20,760 bases of DNA. It comes from a virus. Location of the stretch: the IMG/VR virus record IMGVR_UViG_3300042465_005926, positions 1-20,760 of that record; one strand, 5' to 3'. Below are positions 45 through 18,573 of this stretch, piece by piece. The notes under the pieces are model-generated. The model was not told the origin of the DNA and searched no databases. It saw only the letters and a program-made list of their open reading frames with translations. How positions within the stretch are numbered: the first letter of the stretch is position 1; every line of letters begins with the position of its first letter. A program made the position numbers and the translations under genes.

Positions 45-395
45 TTATGCCGTAGGGGGGTTGTTGCCTCTTGAGGAGTTACAGGATTTATGTGCTGGTA
101 ATAGTGGTGAATCTGGGACACCAGGGTAGTAGTGGTCTGCTGTGATTTGTTTTTTATCTGTGAATGGTTGTTTGCATAGCCAACATATTGTGGCTGTTTC
201 TCTTACTTGTTTTGCTCTTTTGCGATAATCGCTTGAATAGTGTGTTCTGTTTGGTTTACGTTTTTGATCTAGTTTTGCAATGTATTCGCTTTGGTGCTTT
301 TGACAGCGGTTTCCTTTCTCAACGAGTGTGCCGCAGTTGAGGCAAGGTCTTTTGAATCCCATTGTTTTATTGTCCCATTGGTTTGGGATACCCAT
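45..395 (-). CDS. HNH endonuclease (terminase-associated type)
   Basis: A 116-aa protein with an HNH fold. An N-terminal zinc knuckle (C18, C21, C31, H34) is followed by a basic stretch, and then the HNH core: C71 and C74, the D87-H88 pair, H102, C105 and N106. In tailed phages HNH proteins of this size usually lie just before the terminase genes and help DNA packaging. Here the terminase would lie left of the window edge, which fits the leftward transcription. The ATG at 395 gives a 127-bp overlap with the upstream Ntn hydrolase gene. A second in-frame ATG at 362 (residue 12, MGFKRPCLNCG) leaves the zinc knuckle intact and shortens the overlap. Neither start has a clear ribosome-binding site. 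The family call is firm; the start and packaging role are inferred. Confidence 0.85.
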   Translation of the reverse strand: MGIPNQWDNKTMGFKRPCLNCGTLVEKGNRCQKHQSEYIAKLDQKRKPNRTHYSSDYRKRAKQVRETATICWLCKQPFTDKKQITADHYYPGVPDSPLLPAHKSCNSSRGNNPPTA

Positions 396-958
396 CCGTA
401 GATTGGTGGGTGGGAGAAAGAGTCGTGGGTGATGGCTGTTTCTATTGCTTCATATAAATATGTTGGATGATTTGTGTCCCAGTCTTTTTGTTTCCTGTGT
501 GCTGTTGCTAATGATCCAAGTGCTAATGAGCCACCTGAACCTATTGCCCAGTATGGTGTGCATCTGCTGATGCCTAGTGTGTTGCTTATGCTGAATGCTT
601 TGCCGTGTGTGACAAGGATTAGTTCTGAGTCTGGTAGTTCTGCTACACCATCTTTAACATCTAGGGTTAGTTGTTCTTGCGCAATCTTTCTGATTAAAGG
701 AATAACTCTTTTCGCTATCCATTGATACCAACTCATTTCATCCTCTTTCTTTTTTAGTTGTGGCGGGATTGCTGGGTACTTAACTATGTACTGGAGTGTG
801 TCGCAGACCCTATCGCTTCCAGCAGCAGCAATAAGCCATTCGCCTTGTCTGATGATTTTGTTCATTGGCATTGCAGTTGTGAATTGCTCATCAGTTATTC
901 CACTCTCAGACATCATTACGCATTGTTTGTTTGTTGATGCAATCCCAATTGTTGTCAT
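269..958 (-). CDS. Proteasome-beta/HslV-like Ntn hydrolase
   Basis: A 229-aa protein that begins MTTIGIAS. After removal of Met it would expose Thr1, the nucleophile of proteasome beta and HslV peptidases. In mature numbering a Lys falls at position 33 (PMNKII) and a Glu at 17, where those families have Lys33 and Asp17. A GSGG motif at residues 140-143 and an Asp at 179 match the conserved glycine-serine-glycine and late Asp of the fold. Length fits a beta subunit without a propeptide. No AAA+ unfoldase such as HslU or Mpa is seen nearby. It could act as a phage protease or have lost activity. The ATG overlaps the stop of the 35-aa gene upstream, and the C-terminus overlaps the HNH gene. Fold assignment comes from motif spacing; activity is inferred. 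Confidence 0.72.
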   Translation of the reverse strand: MTTIGIASTNKQCVMMSESGITDEQFTTAMPMNKIIRQGEWLIAAAGSDRVCDTLQYIVKYPAIPPQLKKKEDEMSWYQWIAKRVIPLIRKIAQEQLTLDVKDGVAELPDSELILVTHGKAFSISNTLGISRCTPYWAIGSGGSLALGSLATAHRKQKDWDTNHPTYLYEAIETAITHDSFSHPPIYGWVSQTNGTIKQWDSKDLASTAAHSLRKETAVKSTKANTLQN

Positions 959-1062
959 TTAACTTTTAGGCTCTCTCGGTCAATGGATATGTTTGCAGCC
1001 TGTAAGCATTCGGCATAGGTTTCGTGGTCTTGTGTATCGCAACCACTACGACAGTTACTCAT
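955..1062 (-). CDS. Small Cys-containing conserved phage protein (35 aa)
   Basis: A 35-aa reading frame starting MSNCRSGCDTQDHETYAECL and ending LKVK. The pattern CxxxC, then TQDH-x-x-YAECL, resembles small proteins found in many actinophages, whose function is unknown. It overlaps the stop of the upstream 65-aa gene by 8 bp, and its TGA overlaps the ATG of the Ntn hydrolase (ATGA junction), the normal packing of this operon. The three cysteines could bind a metal, but no complete site is visible. Confidence 0.65.
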   Translation of the reverse strand: MSNCRSGCDTQDHETYAECLQAANISIDRESLKVK

Positions 1063-1252
1063 CTGCTAACACTTCACTAGCGGGAGCAACATAGTTCTGT
1101 CTCTTGTACTCACGTATCTTTAACTTTGCTGGGCTGTAACCACCAATGGTTCTACCAGTCTTACGTTGTTTACGTGGCTTCTTCTTCCACGCCTTGCCAC
1201 ACTTACGATTGTCGTTACGAGTACCACCTGACTTGCTTCTACCTTTAGCCAC
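1055..1252 (-). CDS. Small highly basic protein, unknown function
   Basis: A 65-aa protein very rich in Lys and Arg in its first 50 residues (for example KKKPRKQRKTGR), with a neutral to acidic C-terminus. The start is GTG at 1252, and GGAAAGG lies 8 bases upstream, overlapping the end of the preceding gene. The charge suggests nucleic-acid binding, possibly accessory to packaging or DNA compaction, but no fold is recognised. An overlapping frame at 1120-1320 is most likely a shadow. Confidence 0.6.
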   Translation of the reverse strand: MAKGRSKSGGTRNDNRKCGKAWKKKPRKQRKTGRTIGGYSPAKLKIREYKRQNYVAPASEVLADE

Positions 1253-1570
1253 TTACTCGACCTTTCCAATAACTGAACCTTTACCTGAAGCAACATCAAC
1301 AGCGTGCAGAACACCAGCAATGAACAATGTTGGTATCTGATGATCAGTTGAGTTAGCGTTACGAAAGGTCATAACCTCAACCTCAGCCATAATTGAATCA
1401 ATTACTGCTTGTCTTGCGAAAGAAACAATTAGATGAGTTCGATCAATAGATTCTTCTAATGATTCAGGTTTGCCCTCGTAATGATCCATAGCATAATTCA
1501 TTAACAAGGATTTGATTCGCTGACCAACAGGGTCATCAAAGATTTCTATTCCCACGATTGTTTCAACCAT
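1253..1570 (-). CDS. Conserved hypothetical protein (105 aa)
   Basis: I do not recognise this 105-aa protein. It looks like a soluble, mainly helical protein of mixed charge, with no membrane segment and no cysteine motif. The ATG at 1570 lies 25 bp inside the end of the upstream HNH gene, with AAGG almost abutting it. A GTG at 1555 is an alternative start. It belongs to the same left operon, and its position between HNH and the basic protein says little about its job. Confidence 0.6.
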   Translation of the reverse strand: MVETIVGIEIFDDPVGQRIKSLLMNYAMDHYEGKPESLEESIDRTHLIVSFARQAVIDSIMAEVEVMTFRNANSTDHQIPTLFIAGVLHAVDVASGKGSVIGKVE

Positions 1571-1827
1571 CCTTGCTCGTGTGCTTCTTTAGGATTTTGT
1601 GTAACCCAGGTATGGCAAGGGCGACATAACGCCACGAGGTTGTCTATTTCTGTGATTGACCCGCCGCGCGAACGGCTCTTTATTTCGTGTATGTCGTGGC
1701 TTCTATCAGACAAACACCTTTGACAAACAGGTCTATCAGCCAAGAGTTTGCGAACAAGATTCCTACGCTTGGTTGCATAAAGTTGTTCCATCTTCGCTGA
1801 TCTTGGTCTAATAGGTTTCCTGTTCAT
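1546..1827 (-). CDS. HNH endonuclease, classic type
   Basis: A 93-aa protein from the ATG at 1827; a TTG at 1833 would add two residues. It contains a compact HNH motif: C35-x2-C38, H47-E48, N63, then C68-x2-C71-H72, with the DNLVALCRPCH signature of the family. The N-terminus is strongly basic. It follows the SSB gene by a few bases. Stand-alone HNH proteins of this size in phages act as homing or packaging nucleases. This is the second HNH protein of the window, and its sequence differs clearly from the one at 45-395. Confidence 0.88.
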   Translation of the reverse strand: MNRKPIRPRSAKMEQLYATKRRNLVRKLLADRPVCQRCLSDRSHDIHEIKSRSRGGSITEIDNLVALCRPCHTWVTQNPKEAHEQGWLKQSWE

Positions 1828-1836
1828 AATCAAATC

Positions 1837-2256
1837 TTAAAAGGTATCTGATACCCAAGGATTGTTATCTGACTGAGTTGCAGCGGGCTTGTCACGCATA
1901 ATTTCGCTATGAGGGCTGAATGCTTTACGTCTAAGTTCAGCACCTACTGAGTCTGCTTCTACTTCAAAAACAGTTTTCTCTGTGCCGTCTTTGGCTGTGT
2001 AGGAGCGTTGTTTGAACTTTCCTGTGATTACTACTGTGTCGCCTTTGCTTACAGTTTTGGTTGTGTTTTCTGCTGTGTCGTTCCAAACGTTTACGTTCAA
2101 AAATACTTTGTCACCATCAACCCATTGACCTGCTGGGTCTTTCTTACGTTCTGAGCAGGCAACACGAAGTGAAGCAACTGCTTTACCTGTTGTTGTGAAA
2201 CGGAGTTCTGGGTCTTGCGTTAAGTTACCTACAATGATGATCGTCGGTAATGGCAT
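1837..2256 (-). CDS. ssb: Single-stranded DNA-binding protein
   Basis: A 139-aa SSB. The N-terminal OB fold covers about residues 1-108, with typical stretches IIIVGNLTQDPELRFTTTGK, RVACSERK, LNVNVWNDTAE and GDTVVITGKFKQRSY. The C-terminal tail is short and ends NNPWVSDTF, so the acidic DDDIPF-like tip that recruits partner proteins in bacterial SSB is only weakly kept. A strong ribosome-binding site (AAAGGAG) precedes the ATG. It should coat single-stranded phage DNA during replication or recombination, with the annealing protein and resolvase encoded nearby. Confidence 0.95.
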   Translation of the reverse strand: MPLPTIIIVGNLTQDPELRFTTTGKAVASLRVACSERKKDPAGQWVDGDKVFLNVNVWNDTAENTTKTVSKGDTVVITGKFKQRSYTAKDGTEKTVFEVEADSVGAELRRKAFSPHSEIMRDKPAATQSDNNPWVSDTF

Positions 2257-2660
2257 TATTTATCTCCTTTGATTTTTGTTAAACGGCTTCCCTGAGTTAT
2301 AGGAAAGAAACCAACAGACTTAGTTCTTTTGCTTTTGTTTTCGAACTGTGTTGTTGTTGGTAAATCTGTTTGGTCTTTCCACTCTGGTTCAAATAGGCGT
2401 AAATCGAAAGCCCACACACCTTGAGGAGTTGAACAAATGTAAGTTGGAATCATTCCTCTTTCACCAGCCTCATATTTCAAGCGAGCATATTTTGATTGCT
2501 CAATCATCAGGTTTTCATAATGAGAATTACGACATTTAAGTTCAATAAACAGTTGTCTAGAGTTAGAAAAACAATCATATGATGCGTAAACACTAGATGA
2601 TTTAATCAAATCTGGCATATAAAACTCTTTTAACTTATCAAATAATTCTTTTTCGTTCAT
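2256..2660 (-). CDS. PD-(D/E)XK nuclease-like protein
   Basis: A 134-aa protein in which D29 and the E40-L-K42 of FIELKCR form a plausible PD-(D/E)XK active site. An IEQSKY helix follows, as in many restriction-like folds. The second half (ICSTPQGVWAFDLRLFEP) reads as the end of the same domain, and the basic C-terminus (NKSKRTKS) may help DNA binding. Its ATG overlaps the WhiB stop (ATGA) and its stop meets the SSB start. Target and role are unknown; DNA processing with SSB and the resolvase is an inference. Confidence 0.6.
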   Translation of the reverse strand: MNEKELFDKLKEFYMPDLIKSSSVYASYDCFSNSRQLFIELKCRNSHYENLMIEQSKYARLKYEAGERGMIPTYICSTPQGVWAFDLRLFEPEWKDQTDLPTTTQFENKSKRTKSVGFFPITQGSRLTKIKGDK

Positions 2661-3001
2661 AATCTGTGCGCAATCACTCGAATAACTTTTCTTTTATCCT
2701 TAACGTTCTCAGGAAGTGGAAACGCTTTTCTTAATCGTTCTCGCTCTGCGGCACTAAAACTGCCCCACACACCAAAACGTTGTTTAGATTCCCAAGCATC
2801 TTCTAAACAGAAACCTCTAACAGGACAACCTAAACAAATTTTTATTGCTCTTTTCATACCTGCAACATCATCTGCTTCACAGAAAAACATTTCAGGATCA
2901 GCATCCAAGCATTTTGCGTGTTTCTCCCAATCATCTGGTCTTGGGCAAGTTCCACAAATCTCTGTACCCTCAATCACAGGATGATTGCAATCTTTTAGCA
3001 T
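2657..3001 (-). CDS. whiB-like: WhiB-family iron-sulfur transcription regulator
   Basis: A 114-aa protein with the WhiB signature. C31, C56, C59 and C65 form the 4Fe-4S ligand set (C-x24-C-x2-C-x5-C), followed by the FGVWGS turn at 76-81 in place of the usual G(V/I)WGG, and then a basic C-terminal tail. The ATG at 3001 is preferred over a TTG at 3007 because GAGGA lies 8 bases upstream of the ATG but only 2 from the TTG. Four further cysteines (C5, C16, C19, C41) lie in the N-terminal part, which is unusual. WhiB proteins bind the main sigma factor; phage copies can reprogram host transcription. It overlaps the resolvase gene by 32 bp. Confidence 0.95.
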   Translation of the reverse strand: MLKDCNHPVIEGTEICGTCPRPDDWEKHAKCLDADPEMFFCEADDVAGMKRAIKICLGCPVRGFCLEDAWESKQRFGVWGSFSAAERERLRKAFPLPENVKDKRKVIRVIAHRL

Positions 3002-3335
3002 TCTCAAGTTCCTCTATCAGTCTGGTTATGGTTTCCAAACTTACTACTGCCCACCAATCTGAAACGCGAGACACTCCTATACCTACTGGCTTAATAACAA
3101 GAACACCAAGGTTTGCAGCGGCATTTACTCGTTCAGTTTCTGTTTCCCTCATCCATTCCTGAATCTTGTAAGACCTTTGATTTTTAACTTCAACAACACA
3201 GCCAGGAACGCCAGCAATGTCTCCAGTATCAAATTTGCCTTGGAGAGCACGTCTTTCAACTGCTGGGAAAGTTTGCCTCAAATAATCAGCAACAGCAGTT
3301 TCAGCCAACGTTCCTTTCTGCTTTGATTTGCTCAT
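2970..3335 (-). CDS. Holliday-junction resolvase-like nuclease
   Basis: A 121-aa PD-(D/E)XK nuclease of the type annotated as Holliday-junction resolvase in actinophages. E12 (KGTLAETAVADYLR), D39 (GDIAG) and the E49-V-K51 pair form the metal-binding site. The spacing and the GVPGCVVEVKNQ stretch fit archaeal-Hjc-like and VRR-NUC enzymes. It would cleave branched DNA during recombination or before packaging. The ATG overlaps the TGA of the 23-aa micro-ORF upstream. Fold confidence is high; substrate is inferred. Confidence 0.82.
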   Translation of the reverse strand: MSKSKQKGTLAETAVADYLRQTFPAVERRALQGKFDTGDIAGVPGCVVEVKNQRSYKIQEWMRETETERVNAAANLGVLVIKPVGIGVSRVSDWWAVVSLETITRLIEELENAKRLQSSCD

Positions 3336-4481: not shown

Positions 4482-4880
4482 TTAGAAGTGTGGGTCTCTG
4501 TATTCTTTTGCGTAACCAACAGCAACTTCACCACTCCAAGTACGAGCAATAAACTTGTAAATGCCTCTTGCTTTTTGATTACACCAAACACAATTCTTTG
4601 GATCGGCAGAATCTTTTGAGCAAGAATAATTTGTGCATTTGATTTCTTTTGCGTGGAATCTTGTTTTAACACCATTTACTTCGTGTGTTGTTTCAAGATA
4701 GTTAATTTGTCCTGCTCTTGCACCAGATTTGAATCTAACTACATTAGTTACAATGTCAGCATAAGAATCTGATCCAACATAATACGTTGCAACATTTCCA
4801 ACTTCTACTTCCATCATTGCAATTGCTGGGAATCTTTCATTGTATTCTTCTACCCAACTTTTAATTACTGTGCTTTCCAT
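4482..4880 (-). CDS. Hypothetical protein, first gene of the left operon
   Basis: A 132-aa protein of unknown function. Its middle (TYYVGSDSYADIVTNVVRFK) looks beta-rich. Towards the end it has a cysteine group, CTNYSCSKDSADPKNCVWC, that could form a zinc ribbon. The ATG follows AGGAAAGG by about 7 bases, a strong ribosome-binding site. It is the first gene downstream of the long non-coding stretch and of the predicted promoter at 4919-4946, so it probably heads the operon that runs to the left edge. Confidence 0.75.
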   Translation of the reverse strand: MESTVIKSWVEEYNERFPAIAMMEVEVGNVATYYVGSDSYADIVTNVVRFKSGARAGQINYLETTHEVNGVKTRFHAKEIKCTNYSCSKDSADPKNCVWCNQKARGIYKFIARTWSGEVAVGYAKEYRDPHF

Positions 4881-5670: not shown

Positions 5671-5822
5671 CTTTTGGCCTCTGGAATCATCATCTCGATT
5701 GAAATACGGATTACTTCTGATACTGATGCGTTGTGCTGTTTTGCAAACGCTTTAATTGCACGCATTTGGTTGTTGTTCAAACGCAGGGCAATTAGGTTTT
5801 CTTTTCCTGACTTGTCAGACAT
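5667..5822 (-). CDS. Ribbon-helix-helix DNA-binding protein (51 aa)
   Basis: A 51-aa protein: MSDKSGKENLIALRLNNNQM, then RAIKAFAKQHNASVSEVIRI and SIEMMIPEAKR. The pattern of a short strand (LIALRLN), helix (QMRAIKAFAKQHN), turn and second helix (SVSEVIRISIEMM) is the MetJ/Arc/CopG fold, which binds DNA as dimers on repeated short sites. A strong ribosome-binding site (AAAGGA, 5 bases) precedes the ATG. The upstream DNA carries three GACACAA elements, plausible operators for autoregulation, and GATAAC iterons lie 0.7 kb downstream. The fold is confident, the targets inferred. Confidence 0.85.
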   Translation of the reverse strand: MSDKSGKENLIALRLNNNQMRAIKAFAKQHNASVSEVIRISIEMMIPEAKR

Positions 5823-5871
5823 TATTTTCCTTTCGCAGTTAGGTTAATGTTATACGAAGTGTTTTGTGAGG

Positions 5872-5918
5872 TTGTGTCGGGTCAGCGGAAAGGGGACACA
5901 AGTGCCAACCCGACACAA
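5872..5918. promoter_or_regulatory. GACACAA element array, candidate operator
   Basis: TTGTGTCGGGT (5872-5882) is the exact reverse complement of ACCCGACACAA (5908-5918), an 11-bp inverted repeat. An extra GACACAAG lies at 5895-5902, a direct repeat of the one at 5912-5919, 17 bp apart. Thus three copies of GACACAA precede the RHH gene, near a TATAAC that could be its -10 box (5854-5849). In RNA the first arm could pair with either of the two others, giving alternative hairpins. Confidence 0.5.
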
Positions 5919-5977
5919 GAGAGCCCCGCCAGGGAACTCTCGGTGGACATCTGAGCCACTAGGGAATGACTCAGATG
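5919..5977 (-). other. Two further stem-loops, possible structured RNA or terminator
   Basis: GAGAGCCC (5919-5926) pairs with GGGAACTCTC (5932-5941), with an AA bulge and a CGCCA loop. CATCTGAG (5948-5955) pairs perfectly with CTCAGATG (5970-5977). The second stem overlaps the last codon and stop of the 78-aa gene. Both loops contain a TTCCCT-like run on the minus strand. No U tract follows, and the GC content is above that of the surroundings, which favours a structured RNA or processing site over a simple terminator. Confidence 0.45.
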
Positions 5978-12703: not shown

Positions 12704-13534
12704 TTAGTTTATGCCTATTCTAACTACTACTATTCCTGAACCGCCAGAACCAGCAGTTGCATTTGCATTATTACCTGCTCCAGCATTACCAGTATTTGAT
12801 GCACCATTCTCAGGGGTAATTGTTCTATCACCAATACCACCAGCAGCATAAGTTACAGCAGTTTCACTAATAGAATTAGAGACCCCAACGCCACCACTAT
12901 TATTACTTGAACCAGCACCATTTGCACCAACGCTACCTGCACCACCGCCACCACCACCAGATTGATTTACGGAGTTACCACCAGCAAAACCTTGGTTAGC
13001 AGTACCAGTACCACCAGTTCTTGAACCGCCTTGACCACCAGCACCACCACCAGAGCCACCAGTTGTTCCATTATTTAATCCCGAAGCACCACGACCACCA
13101 CCAGTCGAAGTTATTGTGCTAAAAACAGAATTCAAACCACTTGCTTCCGAAGCACCACCAGCACCGACTGTAACAGTAAAACTTTGTACACTAAAAGGTA
13201 AAAGTGTTTCTAAACTTCCACCACCACCTGTTGCGGTAATTGTTGAACGCATACCACCAGCACCCCCACCGCCACCTTGGTCTTTTCCACCACCACCGCC
13301 ACCAGCAACAACAAGATAATCAATATCTCTTGCACTATCAACATAGCGAGCAAAACCTGTTGCTTTAGTCGCTTGAGTAATTGCTAAAGTTCCATCAGAA
13401 GTAAAAGTGTAAACTCTTGATTTACCTAAATTATTTAATGTTCCACCTGTTATAGAAATAAATTGTGCATCAACATCTGTTGAATTATATTTTCTACCTG
13501 CAATTGTTGATCCACCTGCGCGTCTTATCGCCAT
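12704..13534 (-). CDS. Polyglycine tail adhesin 2
   Basis: A 276-aa protein. Residues 1-70 form a small N-terminal domain (MAIRRAGGSTIAGRKYNSTD). The rest is a glycine-rich array (YLVVAGGGGGGKDQGGGGGA) broken by short beta strands (FTVTVGAGGA, FSTITSTGGG), ending GSGGSGIVVVRIGIN. This is the PG-II sandwich style of phage receptor-binding tips such as S16 gp38, and of the wider glycine-rich fibre family. It is a paralogue of the gene just upstream; their stop and start overlap (TAATG). It probably recognises the host surface. Confidence 0.75.
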   Translation of the reverse strand: MAIRRAGGSTIAGRKYNSTDVDAQFISITGGTLNNLGKSRVYTFTSDGTLAITQATKATGFARYVDSARDIDYLVVAGGGGGGKDQGGGGGAGGMRSTITATGGGGSLETLLPFSVQSFTVTVGAGGASEASGLNSVFSTITSTGGGRGASGLNNGTTGGSGGGAGGQGGSRTGGTGTANQGFAGGNSVNQSGGGGGGAGSVGANGAGSSNNSGGVGVSNSISETAVTYAAGGIGDRTITPENGASNTGNAGAGNNANATAGSGGSGIVVVRIGIN

Positions 13535-14391
13535 TATGCTAAATACCTCACTATAACTATTCCTGAACCACCAGAACCAGCAGTATTACCACTTGCGCCA
13601 CCACCACCACTACCAGTATTAGTAGTGCCATTACCACCAGGGTCTCCACCATTACCCCCACCACCTGTGCCACCTGTGCCTGTAGTTCCAGAAGCAACTG
13701 CACCACCGCCACCACCTGCTCTAGTAACAGATGTTCCTGTAATTGAAGATGCTAAACCATTACCACCATTTCCACCTACGCTTCCACTTCCATTACTACC
13801 TACTTGGCTTGCACCGCCACCACCACCGCTTCCAAAAGCAGCACTAGCAGTACTTGCAGAGCCGCCACCAAAACCTTCTACTGGTGAATATCCACCTTGA
13901 TTTCCTGCACTTGTTCCGCCAGCAACACCGCTTCCTGAACCACCACCACCGCCTGAACCGCCAGTATCTCCTGCTAAACCACCACTATCGTTACCACGAC
14001 CACCACCACCACCACCAGTAGAAGTTATAGTACTAAAAGCAGAATTAACTCCTTTGAAACCATTGCCTTCTACAACAGTTCTTCCAGCACCACCAGCACC
14101 AACAGTTACAGTGTGATTTCCAATATTGATACTTAAAGTAGAAGTCCTATATCCACCAGCACCACCACCACCACCACGACCTTTACCACCGCCGCCACCA
14201 CCACCAGCGACAACTAAGTACTCAACATTCAAAGCCTTATTGGCTCTAAAAGTTCCATCGCCAGTAAAAGTATGAATAAAATAACCATCTTTATATGTAA
14301 CAGTTCCACCAGTAGCAGGAACAGCATCAGAAGTTCTGCTGTATTTGATGCTATTGGTGATATTAGAAGAAACAAATCTTCTTATCGCCAT
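13534..14391 (-). CDS. Polyglycine tail adhesin 1
   Basis: A 285-aa glycine-rich protein with the same plan as its downstream paralogue: a short N-terminal domain starting MAIRRFVSSN, the strand VEYLVVAGGGGG, several strands between polyglycine stretches (HTVTVGAGGA, FSTITSTGGG), and the end GSGGSGIVIVRYLA. Loops between the polyglycine helices would form the host-contact surface. There is no ribosome-binding site before the ATG, so coupling with the upstream 108-aa gene is likely. The two copies are clearly similar yet differ in the glycine-rich middle. Confidence 0.75.
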   Translation of the reverse strand: MAIRRFVSSNITNSIKYSRTSDAVPATGGTVTYKDGYFIHTFTGDGTFRANKALNVEYLVVAGGGGGGGKGRGGGGGAGGYRTSTLSINIGNHTVTVGAGGAGRTVVEGNGFKGVNSAFSTITSTGGGGGGRGNDSGGLAGDTGGSGGGGGSGSGVAGGTSAGNQGGYSPVEGFGGGSASTASAAFGSGGGGGASQVGSNGSGSVGGNGGNGLASSITGTSVTRAGGGGGAVASGTTGTGGTGGGGNGGDPGGNGTTNTGSGGGGASGNTAGSGGSGIVIVRYLA

Positions 14392-14393
14392 AA

Positions 14394-14720
14394 TTAGTTA
14401 ATTTCTGCGCCGAAAGCGTTGAAAGTAAGATTAGTTGTACCAGAATAAACAGATACAACATCATTACCATTCAAAGTAATACCCAAAGTCAAAGCAATAG
14501 TGTCATTTGCTGGGCAAGAAGCATCATAAGCAATGTAATGCTGATTAGCAATAGATTCACCATCAGGTCGAACAGCAATACGATAAGTGTCAGCGGCAGT
14601 ACCACGATTAGCAATAGTGATCGTTGAAATAACTGCTTGTTCTGAAGCACCCGCTGTATAAAGTGTTGTCAATGCTGGTGTTCCGATTGTTTGTCCAAGA
14701 ACTGCGTATGTTGTGGTCAT
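14394..14720 (-). CDS. Small beta-rich tail or decoration protein (108 aa)
   Basis: A 108-aa protein of alternating polar and hydrophobic residues (VISTITIANRGTAADTYRIA, NDVVSVYSGTTNLTFNAFGA), typical of an Ig-like or jelly-roll beta sandwich. Strong ribosome-binding site AAGGAG. Similar small proteins accompany fibre genes in many phages. A structural role in the tail tip is likely; no enzyme motif is seen. Confidence 0.7.
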   Translation of the reverse strand: MTTTYAVLGQTIGTPALTTLYTAGASEQAVISTITIANRGTAADTYRIAVRPDGESIANQHYIAYDASCPANDTIALTLGITLNGNDVVSVYSGTTNLTFNAFGAEIN

Positions 14721-14729
14721 ATTTTCTCC

Positions 14730-14993
14730 TTATGCGCCCATCAATAAAAATTCGTTAAATGTTGCTCCGCCGCCACCAGAAGTAAAGGCTTGCCACGCAG
14801 CACCATCATAATATTCCAAAGCATTAGTGTCAGTTAAATAGGTAAACATTCCCTCACTAGGTGAAGCAATAGCACTACCTCTAGCCGCAGTCCCAGCGAA
14901 AACCATTAGGGATTGTTCCATTAAGAATGTATTAACTTGACTTGCCTGTAACACATCACCAGCAGTAAAAGTTCTAAAACCTGCACCAGCCAT
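14730..14993 (-). CDS. Small minor tail protein (87 aa)
   Basis: An 87-aa protein with FRTFTAGDVLQASQVNTFLM, then MVFAGTAARGSAI and FTYLTDTNALEYYDGAAWQ. This is a recurring module in actinophage tail regions: the N-terminal part resembles tail-fibre attachment segments and the YYDGAAW part is a small beta unit. A glycine run (SGGGG) precedes the end FNEFLLMGA. Ribosome-binding site AAAGG, 7 bases before the ATG. Confidence 0.75.
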   Translation of the reverse strand: MAGAGFRTFTAGDVLQASQVNTFLMEQSLMVFAGTAARGSAIASPSEGMFTYLTDTNALEYYDGAAWQAFTSGGGGATFNEFLLMGA

Positions 14994-15018
14994 TTAACTA
15001 CCTTTCTTTAGAAGTATT

Positions 15019-16245
15019 CTAATTGCCTAAACGACCTGTGTCGAGTAGACCAAAAACGGCATCATCAAGCACGAATTCAGCAAAATCAAGCGTACTTAAC
15101 TTGAATGTTAGTTCGTGAACAAATATACCAATGTTATGTTCAATCCCGATAATCTCCCCATACTTAACTATCTGTGAACCTAAATTGTTTGGGGTAAATT
15201 TGACCTCAATCTGATTAGTCAAATCTAAAGCCAACAAATTATTTTGCTGCTGAGAAGTCAATTCAGACATTTGAACAGTAATCGAATCAAAACGATACTC
15301 AGGTTCAGAATATTCACCAAGTAAAGAATCAGCCAAAGCCAGAGCATCAAGATCAGAATTGAACAACAAACCATCTAAGTTATATGAAGAAATACCATAA
15401 GCGTTCTGTGAATTAAAATCATCAACAGTTTGAGGATTACCACCAGCCCTAGTCACAACAATTCGGTTATACAAAAATTCTGATCCGTAAACAACAGCAA
15501 CATTAGAAAAAGGAATCCCAGAACCATCATCTGCTAATACAACTAAATCAGTAGAACTTGGGCCAGCCAAAGTGTCTTGAAAAGTTGCGTTACCTGAGTT
15601 GTCAATGAAGAAAGAACCACCCTCAGTTTGTTCAACAATTTGTAGATAAGTTAAAGCACCAGTTCCGTCATCAACTATGTCACCTTGTAAGTTAATTGTT
15701 CCAACATCAATATTTCTATTCGCTAAAGGCCAATTAACTTCAGGTCTGCTAAGAACAGTATTTATTCTTGCACCAGTAAGTTGAGGAGTAGCGGTGTGTG
15801 CTGCTAATGCTTGTGTTGCAAGCAAAGTGAAACCATCAGAAGCCAAAGCAACAGCCTGATTATCACCAGATGGTTGATATAACAAATTCCAGTCATCAAT
15901 CAGCCCATAAAAAACTGCTGAACCATTTGATCTGACACGGATTTCTCTGTGAGGAACAATCTGACCAGCGTAAGGACTTAAAGCGTACAGAGGATCAAAA
16001 ACTCTTGTTGTGTTATCAAAAATAACTTCCAAGTTTCCAGCATCATATCTATCAAGTTCACGAGTTTTACCACGATTAGTATTTATTGAAATAACATAAT
16101 CTGTGACATCATAAAAAAGTGTTCCACCAAGAGTAAACTCTGTGTTATCTAAAACACCTTGTACTTCATCATCAAGAGTGAAAAAAGGTCCACCTTGTGA
16201 AGTTAAATCAAAACCAATTTCAACTGTTTTTGTTGGTAAAGCCAT
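15019..16245 (-). CDS. Minor tail protein (baseplate hub-type)
   Basis: A 408-aa protein immediately after the tape measure gene, the usual place of distal tail or hub proteins in siphoviruses. It is beta-rich. Residues 45-130 (YDVTDYVISINTNRGKTREL...IFDNTTRVFDPLY) match the start of many actinophage minor tail proteins. The ends carry related motifs: FTLDDEVQGVLDNTEFTLGG at 22-41 and FVLDDAVFGLLDTGRLGN at the C-terminus. The start codon follows the tape measure stop directly. Confidence 0.8.
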   Translation of the reverse strand: MALPTKTVEIGFDLTSQGGPFFTLDDEVQGVLDNTEFTLGGTLFYDVTDYVISINTNRGKTRELDRYDAGNLEVIFDNTTRVFDPLYALSPYAGQIVPHREIRVRSNGSAVFYGLIDDWNLLYQPSGDNQAVALASDGFTLLATQALAAHTATPQLTGARINTVLSRPEVNWPLANRNIDVGTINLQGDIVDDGTGALTYLQIVEQTEGGSFFIDNSGNATFQDTLAGPSSTDLVVLADDGSGIPFSNVAVVYGSEFLYNRIVVTRAGGNPQTVDDFNSQNAYGISSYNLDGLLFNSDLDALALADSLLGEYSEPEYRFDSITVQMSELTSQQQNNLLALDLTNQIEVKFTPNNLGSQIVKYGEIIGIEHNIGIFVHELTFKLSTLDFAEFVLDDAVFGLLDTGRLGN

Positions 16246-18573
16246 TTAGACTCTCACAAACACTTGACCAGATGAGCGTTCATATTTTCTTATTGCTTCA
16301 ACAATGTCGCGGCCAACTTGTGCGCCATTTGTTCCGATACCAGCATTAACAGTTATGTTGTAAGTACTTCCCATTCCAGCGTTTTTACCTGACAGAGGAA
16401 TAACTGCTTCAGGTCCAGCCTCGCCAATAAGTGCATTTGTTGGGCCAGTAACAATTCCACCTTTAGCCATACGAACAGTTTTATTTTGCAGAGCATAAGC
16501 CAAAGCAGTATAAGAAGCCGCTGCTGTTCCAGAAGTTTTCAAAACATTTGCCGCTTTAGCAAATTGAGTTGAGGTTAAAAGTTTTCCTGGTTGCAATATT
16601 GTTCCTGTATCAGTTTTGCGTTTTTCTTCAGGAGCAGGTCCACTTGGGCTAGGAGCACCGCCTGTTGGCCCAGTTGTTGATAAACTTTCAACTACTGATT
16701 TTAGGTCTGCTCTTGCTCTTTCTAATTCTGCTTTGATTCCAGCGACCATAGCCTCTGCTTGTTTAACACCAGCGTCATAAAAAGCCACAGCACCAAATTC
16801 ACCAACTTGATCAGCAACATTGAATATTGAATCAACAAGAGTATTGACTTGATCAACTACTGTTGCGCCACCAATAATTATGCTGTCAGCAATCTTCGAA
16901 CCAGCCTCAAAACCTGCATTCAAAACTTGTCTAATAGCACGTTCATTCAAACCAAGAACAACAAGTTGTTTAACCTTGTCAGCGAAAAGAGTCGCCTTAG
17001 TTGCCTGATCCGCTAAACCTTTTAAGAAATCCTCAGATTCGGCTGCTTTACCAAAATCTAAAATACCTGTAATTGTGTTGCCAATTGCATCTTTGAAATT
17101 TGTAAATTTTCCACGAACGTCATCAAGTGCTGATTCGGCTTTACGTAAAGCATCTTCAAGATTATCCACAACAACTTGAGCCGCACCTTTTGCTGCTTCT
17201 TTAACTTTTTTAAGTTCTTCAGAAGTTTTTTCTAATCCTTTGTTCATTTTTCCTACGCTTGGGACAACTTCAGTAGAAATTGCTGTACCTAACGTATCTG
17301 TTTGTGCTGCTAAAGCACCCATATTGTTAGATGCTTCAACTGTTGAAAGACTGATGCGTTTAAGTGCGACTGGGGCTATTTGCCCAACTTCTTTAACATC
17401 AACCCCAAACATTTGTAAGCCTCTAATTACTAAATTCATTCCTTTCAAAAACAGATTCATATGATCAATAACAAAATTAAGTGCGCCCTCAGCAAAAGTA
17501 ATAAAAGCGTTACCCAGTTTTTGTATTCCTTGACGGAATTTGTCTGAGGTTTGAAAAGCGTGAATCAATGCAACAACTAAAACTGCTAGTAGTGCTGCTA
17601 CTGCATATATTGGGTTTGTTAATAAAACTAACGATAATACTTTGAAAACTCCAATAAATACTTGAATTGCTCCAATAACTTTTCCAATGACAATAAGTAG
17701 TGGTCCAAGGATTGCAATTAAACCTAAAACCTTTAACCCTGTTTCAACTGTTTCAGGACTTAAAGCCTTAAATTTATCGACAAGTTTTTGAATTTCAGGA
17801 ATCACTCTGTCTTTTATGACTGCGCTGATTTCCATTGCAATAGGAAGAAATACTGAACCAAGTTCTTGTCTTAAGTCCCCAAATTCTCTCTGTAAGGCAA
17901 TAATTCGACCCTCTGGAGTTGCTAAAAGTGATTCATTGAAACCTTTGTAAGTTGAATTCAAAACATCAACTAATGCTGCGGCACGTTCAGATTCTGTACC
18001 ATTAGCAATCTTTTTCTTAGTATCCTCATCAAGAACGAAACCAACTCTTGTTAAAGAACCGAATTGACCATTCAAGGCTTGAGCCAAACCATTTGTCATT
18101 GACTTGAAATCGTCAGCGGTTGCCGTAGCACCTTTTTCTGCTAGAACATAATCTAAAATCGCTGGAGTAAGTGAAGAAATTGTGTTGGCTTGTAAATCAA
18201 AAGTTGCTAATTGTGCTTGTGTTGTAACAATGCTTTCCCTTGAAGCAACACCAACTTTTTCTAAAGCAGCGGCTTGTTTTAATAAAGCATCAACTTGAGC
18301 GTTTGTTGCACCACCAGTTGTTAATAAAATTTGTCTAAGTCTTGAAGTTACAGCCTCGGCCTCTATGGCCTCTTTGATCATAAAACCTAAAGCCCCACCA
18401 ACAGCAAGAATTGGGACTGTTAAATTCTTTGTTAAAGATTGGCCAACGTTGTCAAAAATCTTTCCAACAGCACCAAATTTATCTATACCTGTTTTGGCTC
18501 TTTCAAATTCTCTAACAGCAGACTTGATTCCTTTGTCATCAAACTGCGTGAGAATCGGGACAATAATTGCCAT
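16246..18573 (-). CDS. Tape measure protein
   Basis: A 775-aa protein. N-terminal helical region (REFERAKTGIDKFGAVGKIF), a hydrophobic segment near 50-65 (LTVPILAVGGALGFMI), long helical repeats, and a cluster of membrane-like helices at about 285-340 (VLGLIAILGPLLIVIGKVIG and onwards). The end carries the TMP-typical MAKGGIVTGPTNALIGEAGP and EAVIPLSG. The length implies a tail of somewhat over 100 nm at about 1.5 angstrom per residue. The ATG shares a base with the previous stop (TAATG). Confidence 0.95.
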   Translation of the reverse strand: MAIIVPILTQFDDKGIKSAVREFERAKTGIDKFGAVGKIFDNVGQSLTKNLTVPILAVGGALGFMIKEAIEAEAVTSRLRQILLTTGGATNAQVDALLKQAAALEKVGVASRESIVTTQAQLATFDLQANTISSLTPAILDYVLAEKGATATADDFKSMTNGLAQALNGQFGSLTRVGFVLDEDTKKKIANGTESERAAALVDVLNSTYKGFNESLLATPEGRIIALQREFGDLRQELGSVFLPIAMEISAVIKDRVIPEIQKLVDKFKALSPETVETGLKVLGLIAILGPLLIVIGKVIGAIQVFIGVFKVLSLVLLTNPIYAVAALLAVLVVALIHAFQTSDKFRQGIQKLGNAFITFAEGALNFVIDHMNLFLKGMNLVIRGLQMFGVDVKEVGQIAPVALKRISLSTVEASNNMGALAAQTDTLGTAISTEVVPSVGKMNKGLEKTSEELKKVKEAAKGAAQVVVDNLEDALRKAESALDDVRGKFTNFKDAIGNTITGILDFGKAAESEDFLKGLADQATKATLFADKVKQLVVLGLNERAIRQVLNAGFEAGSKIADSIIIGGATVVDQVNTLVDSIFNVADQVGEFGAVAFYDAGVKQAEAMVAGIKAELERARADLKSVVESLSTTGPTGGAPSPSGPAPEEKRKTDTGTILQPGKLLTSTQFAKAANVLKTSGTAAASYTALAYALQNKTVRMAKGGIVTGPTNALIGEAGPEAVIPLSGKNAGMGSTYNITVNAGIGTNGAQVGRDIVEAIRKYERSSGQVFVRV

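Follow-up and report, generated by a model that had tools for sequence, protein, structure and literature searches.

BPH, the beta-proteobacteria proteasome homologue, forms rings; its hallmark is an elongated acidic pore loop, and it has no known unfoldase (PMC5777263). Two further proteasome homologues, AAH and PPH, are found in phages, and an AAA+ partner has not been identified for them (Fuchs, Alva and Lupas 2021, PMC8665760). In the same work, AAH was found in no phage specific to Actinobacteria. HslV without HslU has been noted in a Salmonella jumbo phage (PMC7823757). Because of these reports (PMC8665760, PMC7823757), lone proteasome-like genes in phages are not new. Connectase also has a proteasome-like fold, and it is a monomeric ligase (PMC8665760).

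The window, i.e., the whole stretch of viral DNA analysed here (20,760 nucleotides), carries a gene of this broad type. An earlier note, made from the sequence alone, described its product as a proteasome/HslV-like peptidase.

Fold, family and active site of the peptidase

The peptidase is encoded by an ORF of 229 amino acids (269..958, minus strand), which begins MTTIGIASTNKQCVMMSESGITDE...MNKII. Its parts and its neighbours are shown in Table 1. Near relatives (83-100% identity) are found on nine viral contigs, and the proteins of farther relatives (55-69% identity) stop at residue 205-206. Codons 1-150 are under strong purifying selection (Ka/Ks 0.07-0.12; the value of contig L027 is left out, as an indel shifts its frame). 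In the last 24 residues, where the ORF overlaps the HNH gene, Ka is at least as high as Ks. Because of this tail and of the earlier stop in divergent relatives, the conserved and functional peptidase is about 205 residues long, and the tail is a run-through into the HNH gene. Promoter and terminator scans gave no excess over shuffles.

Table 1. Coordinates of the peptidase gene parts and of neighbouring genes in the window.
Feature	Position	Strand	Evidence or remark
HNH endonuclease-like gene, first on the downstream side; overlaps the 3' end of the peptidase gene	45..362	-	phrog_338, E=3.8e-8
Non-conserved 3' extension of the peptidase ORF (residues 207-229 and stop)	269..340	-	overlaps HNH gene; unselected in the peptidase frame
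Conserved core, proteasome-like Ntn hydrolase (residues 1-206)	341..958	-	T2, E18, K34, G47, G140-S141-G142, D179, S182
Residues 97-112 (LTLDVKDGVAELPDSE), a predicted pore loop lying between H2 and S7	623..670	-	analogy to BPH (PMC5777263)
35-aa Cys/His microprotein ORF (MSNCRSGCDTQDHETYAECLQAANISIDRESLKVK)	955..1062	-	matches phrog_10483, of unknown function
Conserved ORF of 65 aa, highly basic, on the upstream side of the peptidase	1055..1252	-	no family match
Conserved 105-aa ORF	1253..1570	-	no convincing family match
Upstream HNH endonuclease	1546..1833	-	PF01844, E=2.6e-8
Single-strand binding protein (SSB)	1837..2256	-	PF00436, E=2.9e-26
WhiB-family regulator, actinobacterial host marker	2657..3007	-	PF02467, E=1.3e-17

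With the single window protein, Pfam gives no match (the gathering score of PF00227, Proteasome, is not reached), and phmmer against PDB gives only chance matches. Profile and fold methods were therefore needed, and the family placement rests on them. A match to the BP39L lectin (E=0.003) was dismissed, since it involves repeats, scores low and spans 31-46 residues. Among the PHROG families, the peptidase matches phrog_1040 ('peptidase HslV family') with E=1.1e-13. A profile of 38 phage homologues searched against PDB sequences finds BPH over its full length (E=2.6e-13), followed by HslV and proteasome beta, and PF00227 is matched, with E values of at most 0.1, by 30 of the 38 aligned sequences. 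The AlphaFold model made with this alignment (pLDDT 85, pTM 0.80) has the Ntn sandwich fold with proteasome beta topology, and its best Foldseek match is again BPH (E=7.8e-12), followed by the proteasome beta of T. acidophilum and HslV. When only the window's own clade is aligned, the model is weaker (pLDDT 69) and has the same fold; each of the 50 best PDB matches of this model is a chain of a proteasome or of HslV. Gp16 of Microbacterium phage LeeroyJenkins, an independent hold-out, scores 78 bits against the family profile. The peptidase is thus confirmed to be a proteasome/HslV-type Ntn hydrolase, as the earlier note had it, and an unrelated fold, which would have spoken against that assignment, was not what the structure prediction returned.

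In the tree, the window clade is separate (support 100/100) and stands on a long stem. Its position beside bacterial BPH-like rows (support 85/78) was set aside on account of long branches. A first scan of 84,980 species genomes with the clade profile gave no relatives, and a second genome scan gave BPH-like proteins of Proteobacteria only, so that no origin from a host gene was traced.

With Met1 removed, residues T2, E18, and K34 of the ORF fall at T1, E17, and K33. The catalytic Thr, the Lys, and the oxyanion Gly (residue 47) are each invariant in the 38 phage homologues (38/38), as is G140-[S/T]-G142, and position 17 is always acidic (29 Asp and 9 Glu). The window peptidase therefore has the whole catalytic set of the proteasome-like family (Thr/Ser1, Asp17 or Glu17, Lys33, and oxyanion Gly). 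The Thr1, Glu17, and Lys33 spacing and the GSG motif were already pointed out in the earlier note, and related phages agree with it at the two residues, T2 and K34, whose loss would have counted against it. All nine Glu17 rows belong to the window clade; the other clades have Asp17. In the clade-only profile, this Glu is aligned to the Glu in a proteasome beta chain of an archaeon, S. acidocaldarius, and Glu17 is therefore regarded as a natural variant and not a lesion. Glu17 is likewise used by the proteasome of Thermoplasma.

The counterparts of Asp166 and Ser169 of proteasome beta are residues 179 and 182 in the alignment; other clades vary there to Asn and Thr. Asn at the Asp166-equivalent is found in 11 of the 38 homologues, which form a branch among the ct2KA10 relatives, and may alter activity in that branch. 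Such a change would fit a structural or decoy subunit without catalytic activity, e.g., one poisoning the host proteasome, but it occurs in other clades and nothing in the window clade speaks for such a subunit. With T1, the acid at position 17, K33, the oxyanion Gly, and GSG all kept under strong purifying selection, a dead subunit is highly improbable. The inactive scaffold considered in the earlier note is unlikely for the same reason, i.e., the preserved catalytic set.

Every alignment row starts with Met-Thr, and a propeptide is absent. When the window and two phage relatives were scanned with the profile, each had one proteasome-like ORF and no other. On this evidence, the peptidase lacks both the alpha-subunit partner and the cleaved propeptide of a 20S proteasome beta subunit. 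The predicted pore loop follows the pattern L-x-L-[DE]-x-KDGVAELP-x-SE in the window clade. Its net charge is -4 in 14/14 clade members, and its KDGVAELP core is invariant.

Gene neighbourhood and the question of a virion role

Relatives were compared for gene order, each as far as its contig reaches. The order is largely kept: RusA-WhiB-(orf134)-SSB-HNH-orf105-(basic65)-peptidase-HNH-(MTase)-TerS-TerL. The 35-aa microprotein, which the earlier note missed, lies directly upstream of the peptidase and is kept in most relatives; its stop codon TGA shares letters with the start codon ATG of the peptidase (ATGA, a stop-start). In three contigs (L023, L024, and L027), the gene adjoining the peptidase is a different one, with an ATGA overlap of this kind. 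The earlier note placed the peptidase next to HNH and terminase genes. The HNH neighbour is indeed there, overlapping the 3' end, but the window contains no terminase; relatives have TerS and TerL about two to three genes past the peptidase.

Some other features of these genomes are as follows. In a related Asp17 clade, a WhiB-type gene is found directly downstream of the peptidase (L029 at about 2188, L080 at 4612-4872, and L011 at 5715-5954), while the WhiB gene of the window is about 1.7 kb upstream. Contig L173 has, between the HNH gene and TerS, a ParB-like domain fused to an N6/N4 DNA methyltransferase (14010-15086). The window also encodes two tandem similar glycine-rich proteins of 276 and 285 amino acids (12704-14391, minus strand), which are perhaps of the tail adhesin type.

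The WhiB gene and the terminase of a relative, which is 58% identical to that of Pontimonas phage phiPsal1, point to an actinobacterium as the host. phiPsal1 has matches to WhiB, RusA, MTase, TerS, TerL, and the downstream HNH genes, and an SSB is annotated. The peptidase was not found in this syntenic relative, which has its own prohead protease. Since phiPsal1 has the neighbouring genes without it, the peptidase gene is considered accessory.

The position two to three genes upstream of the terminase could suggest a processing protease of virion assembly, acting on capsid or scaffold, and the earlier note hinted at such a role. The ct2KA10 clade, in which the homologue directly follows the portal gene, is in line with it. 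However, window relatives have a prohead protease of the canonical Peptidase_S78 type (E=1e-44 to 1e-46), phages LeeroyJenkins and Pitbull each have a separate capsid maturation protease in addition to the Ntn peptidase, and phiPsal1 has a prohead protease without the peptidase. The presence of a separate protease in phages that bear the peptidase argues against a role in capsid maturation here. The peptidase is also not the sole candidate for a prohead protease beside portal and capsid genes; its gene precedes the terminase. The capsid-protease reading is rejected for the window clade on these grounds, the hint of the earlier note has little behind it there, and a virion-assembly protease is on the whole quite unlikely.

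In the ct2KA10 clade, the order is terminase-portal-peptidase, which puts the homologue in the usual slot of a capsid protease (L095, L162, L168, and L184 at 17155-17691, minus strand). An S78 protease was not detected in 15 contigs of this clade. Because of these two observations, the homologue may have a virion role in that clade.

Unfoldase partner and proposed function

No AAA, AAA_2, HslU, or Mpa/ARC gene is found in three relatives of 32-36 kb (G001-G003), and AAA_2 is not found in 24 contigs of other clades. As the window record is a 20.8-kb fragment, the claim that there is no ATPase rests on these three relatives. Two of them have overlapping ends (81-95% identity), which suggests near-complete coverage. 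AAA matches of 342-354 amino acids exist in Actinomycetia phage DSL-LC01 and in the genomes G013 and G015, with a further frame of 589 amino acids in DSL-LC01. In DSL-LC01, HslU is not matched and Mpa gives only a sub-threshold fragment of 19 residues, and AAA_2 matches neither G013 nor G015; these proteins are therefore not taken as unfoldases. The gene content thus supports the view that the phage encodes no ATPase partner for the peptidase, and the remark of the earlier note that no unfoldase gene is near extends to the longer relatives.

A phage without an AAA+ unfoldase gene might supply a proteolytic chamber and borrow the unfoldase of its host (Mpa/ARC, ClpX, or similar), and AAA+ proteins are present in all control prokaryote genomes. 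Proteasomal ATPases dock on alpha rings. Such rings are missing from the phage, and the pore loop is acidic and BPH-like. In addition, no AAA+ partners were found to co-occur with the novel homologues of the proteasome-like family (Fuchs 2021, PMC8665760). A borrowed unfoldase is therefore unlikely. While the sequence cannot separate this possibility from a peptidase acting alone, acting alone is favoured because of the BPH-like anatomy.

The best reading, to which we give a probability of about 0.55, is that this accessory phage gene encodes an active compartmental peptidase, BPH-like and independent of ATP, for the replication-to-packaging stage in an actinobacterial host. Behind it stand the results on fold, catalytic residues, purifying selection, operon position and the lack of an AAA+ gene in the phage. 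We infer the following course. Methionine aminopeptidase of the host would clip Met1 and expose Thr1. The subunits would then form a ring or double ring that encloses the active sites, and the invariant acidic pore loop would lie at its entrance. This ring may take in unstructured polypeptides, or particular small proteins of host or phage, and degrade or trim them without unfoldase or ATP. It would do so between replication and packaging in the infected actinobacterium.

Purified BPH rings are inert on standard peptides and casein (PMC5777263). For this reason, intact residues are no guarantee of general proteolysis, and the specificity of the peptidase is possibly narrow. A point against the best reading is that a proteasome-like fold can be that of a ligase, as in connectase (PMC8665760). 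The peptidase would then be a sequence-specific processing or ligating enzyme, or another Ntn amidohydrolase, and not a degradative one. Both the membership of connectase in the proteasome-like family (PMC8665760) and the general substrates left uncut by BPH (PMC5777263) are consistent with this. Against it, helices H1 and H2 are both modelled in the peptidase (H49-58 and H74-97), while connectase is without this pair, which makes inter-subunit contacts in ring-forming homologues (PMC8665760). The AlphaFold model also has no S3-S4 insertion of the connectase type. A connectase-like enzyme is thus improbable.

A more elaborate form of the compartmental-peptidase reading involves the microprotein. 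A phage-specific, ATPase-free ring protease with an acidic gate might be controlled by, or act on, the 35-aa protein to which it is stop-start-coupled, and the two might form a minimal self-contained proteolysis module, by which a particular protein of host or phage is removed when replication gives way to packaging. We regard this as very doubtful.

Comparison with known proteasome-like systems

No substrate is known for BPH, AAH, PPH, or the phage HslV-like genes, all of which are proteasome-like and without unfoldase. A small phage of 33-36 kb, in which the peptidase is under strong selection and shares a conserved operon with a coupled microprotein, is well suited to a search for substrates of such rings.

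HslV of HslUV shares the fold, the catalytic set, and the AIGSGG motif with the window peptidase. There is, however, no HslU, the TIGR03692/HslV models are unmatched by the window protein, and the window pore loop is longer and acidic. AAH and PPH are similar as Group I proteasome-like proteins found in phages with no AAA+ partner identified (PMC8665760). PPH has about 140 residues and lacks H2 (PMC8665760), while the window peptidase has about 205 and includes H2 (helix 74-97); it is not a PPH. The window phage looks actinobacterial, which bears on the published gap for Actinobacteria-specific AAH phages, but the peptidase itself is not assigned to AAH here.

BPH (PDB 5ovs, 5ovt, and 5ovu; PMC5777263) is the best match by both profile and fold, and it shares the Thr1-acid17-Lys set, the acidic pore loop, and the lack of an unfoldase partner. 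The identity is only about 17%, and BPH is chromosomal and proteobacterial and has Asp at position 17. BPH is a solved, epoxomicin-reactive, homo-tetradecameric double ring, while for the window peptidase the single-chain fold and the predicted acidic pore loop agree with BPH.

The phrog_1040 phages (e.g., Arthrobacter phage Pitbull gp77, Microbacterium phage LeeroyJenkins gp16, and DSL-LC01) belong to the same broad family and have the same catalytic residues. Their proteins are annotated as 'peptidase HslV family' or 'protease', and several are encoded in actinophages upstream of the terminase. They are about 20-30% identical to the window clade and have Asp17, while the window clade forms its own 100/100 branch. 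What is new is this deep Glu17 clade (100/100) in apparent actinophages, with its invariant acidic pore loop, its conserved operon, and the coupled 35-aa microprotein.
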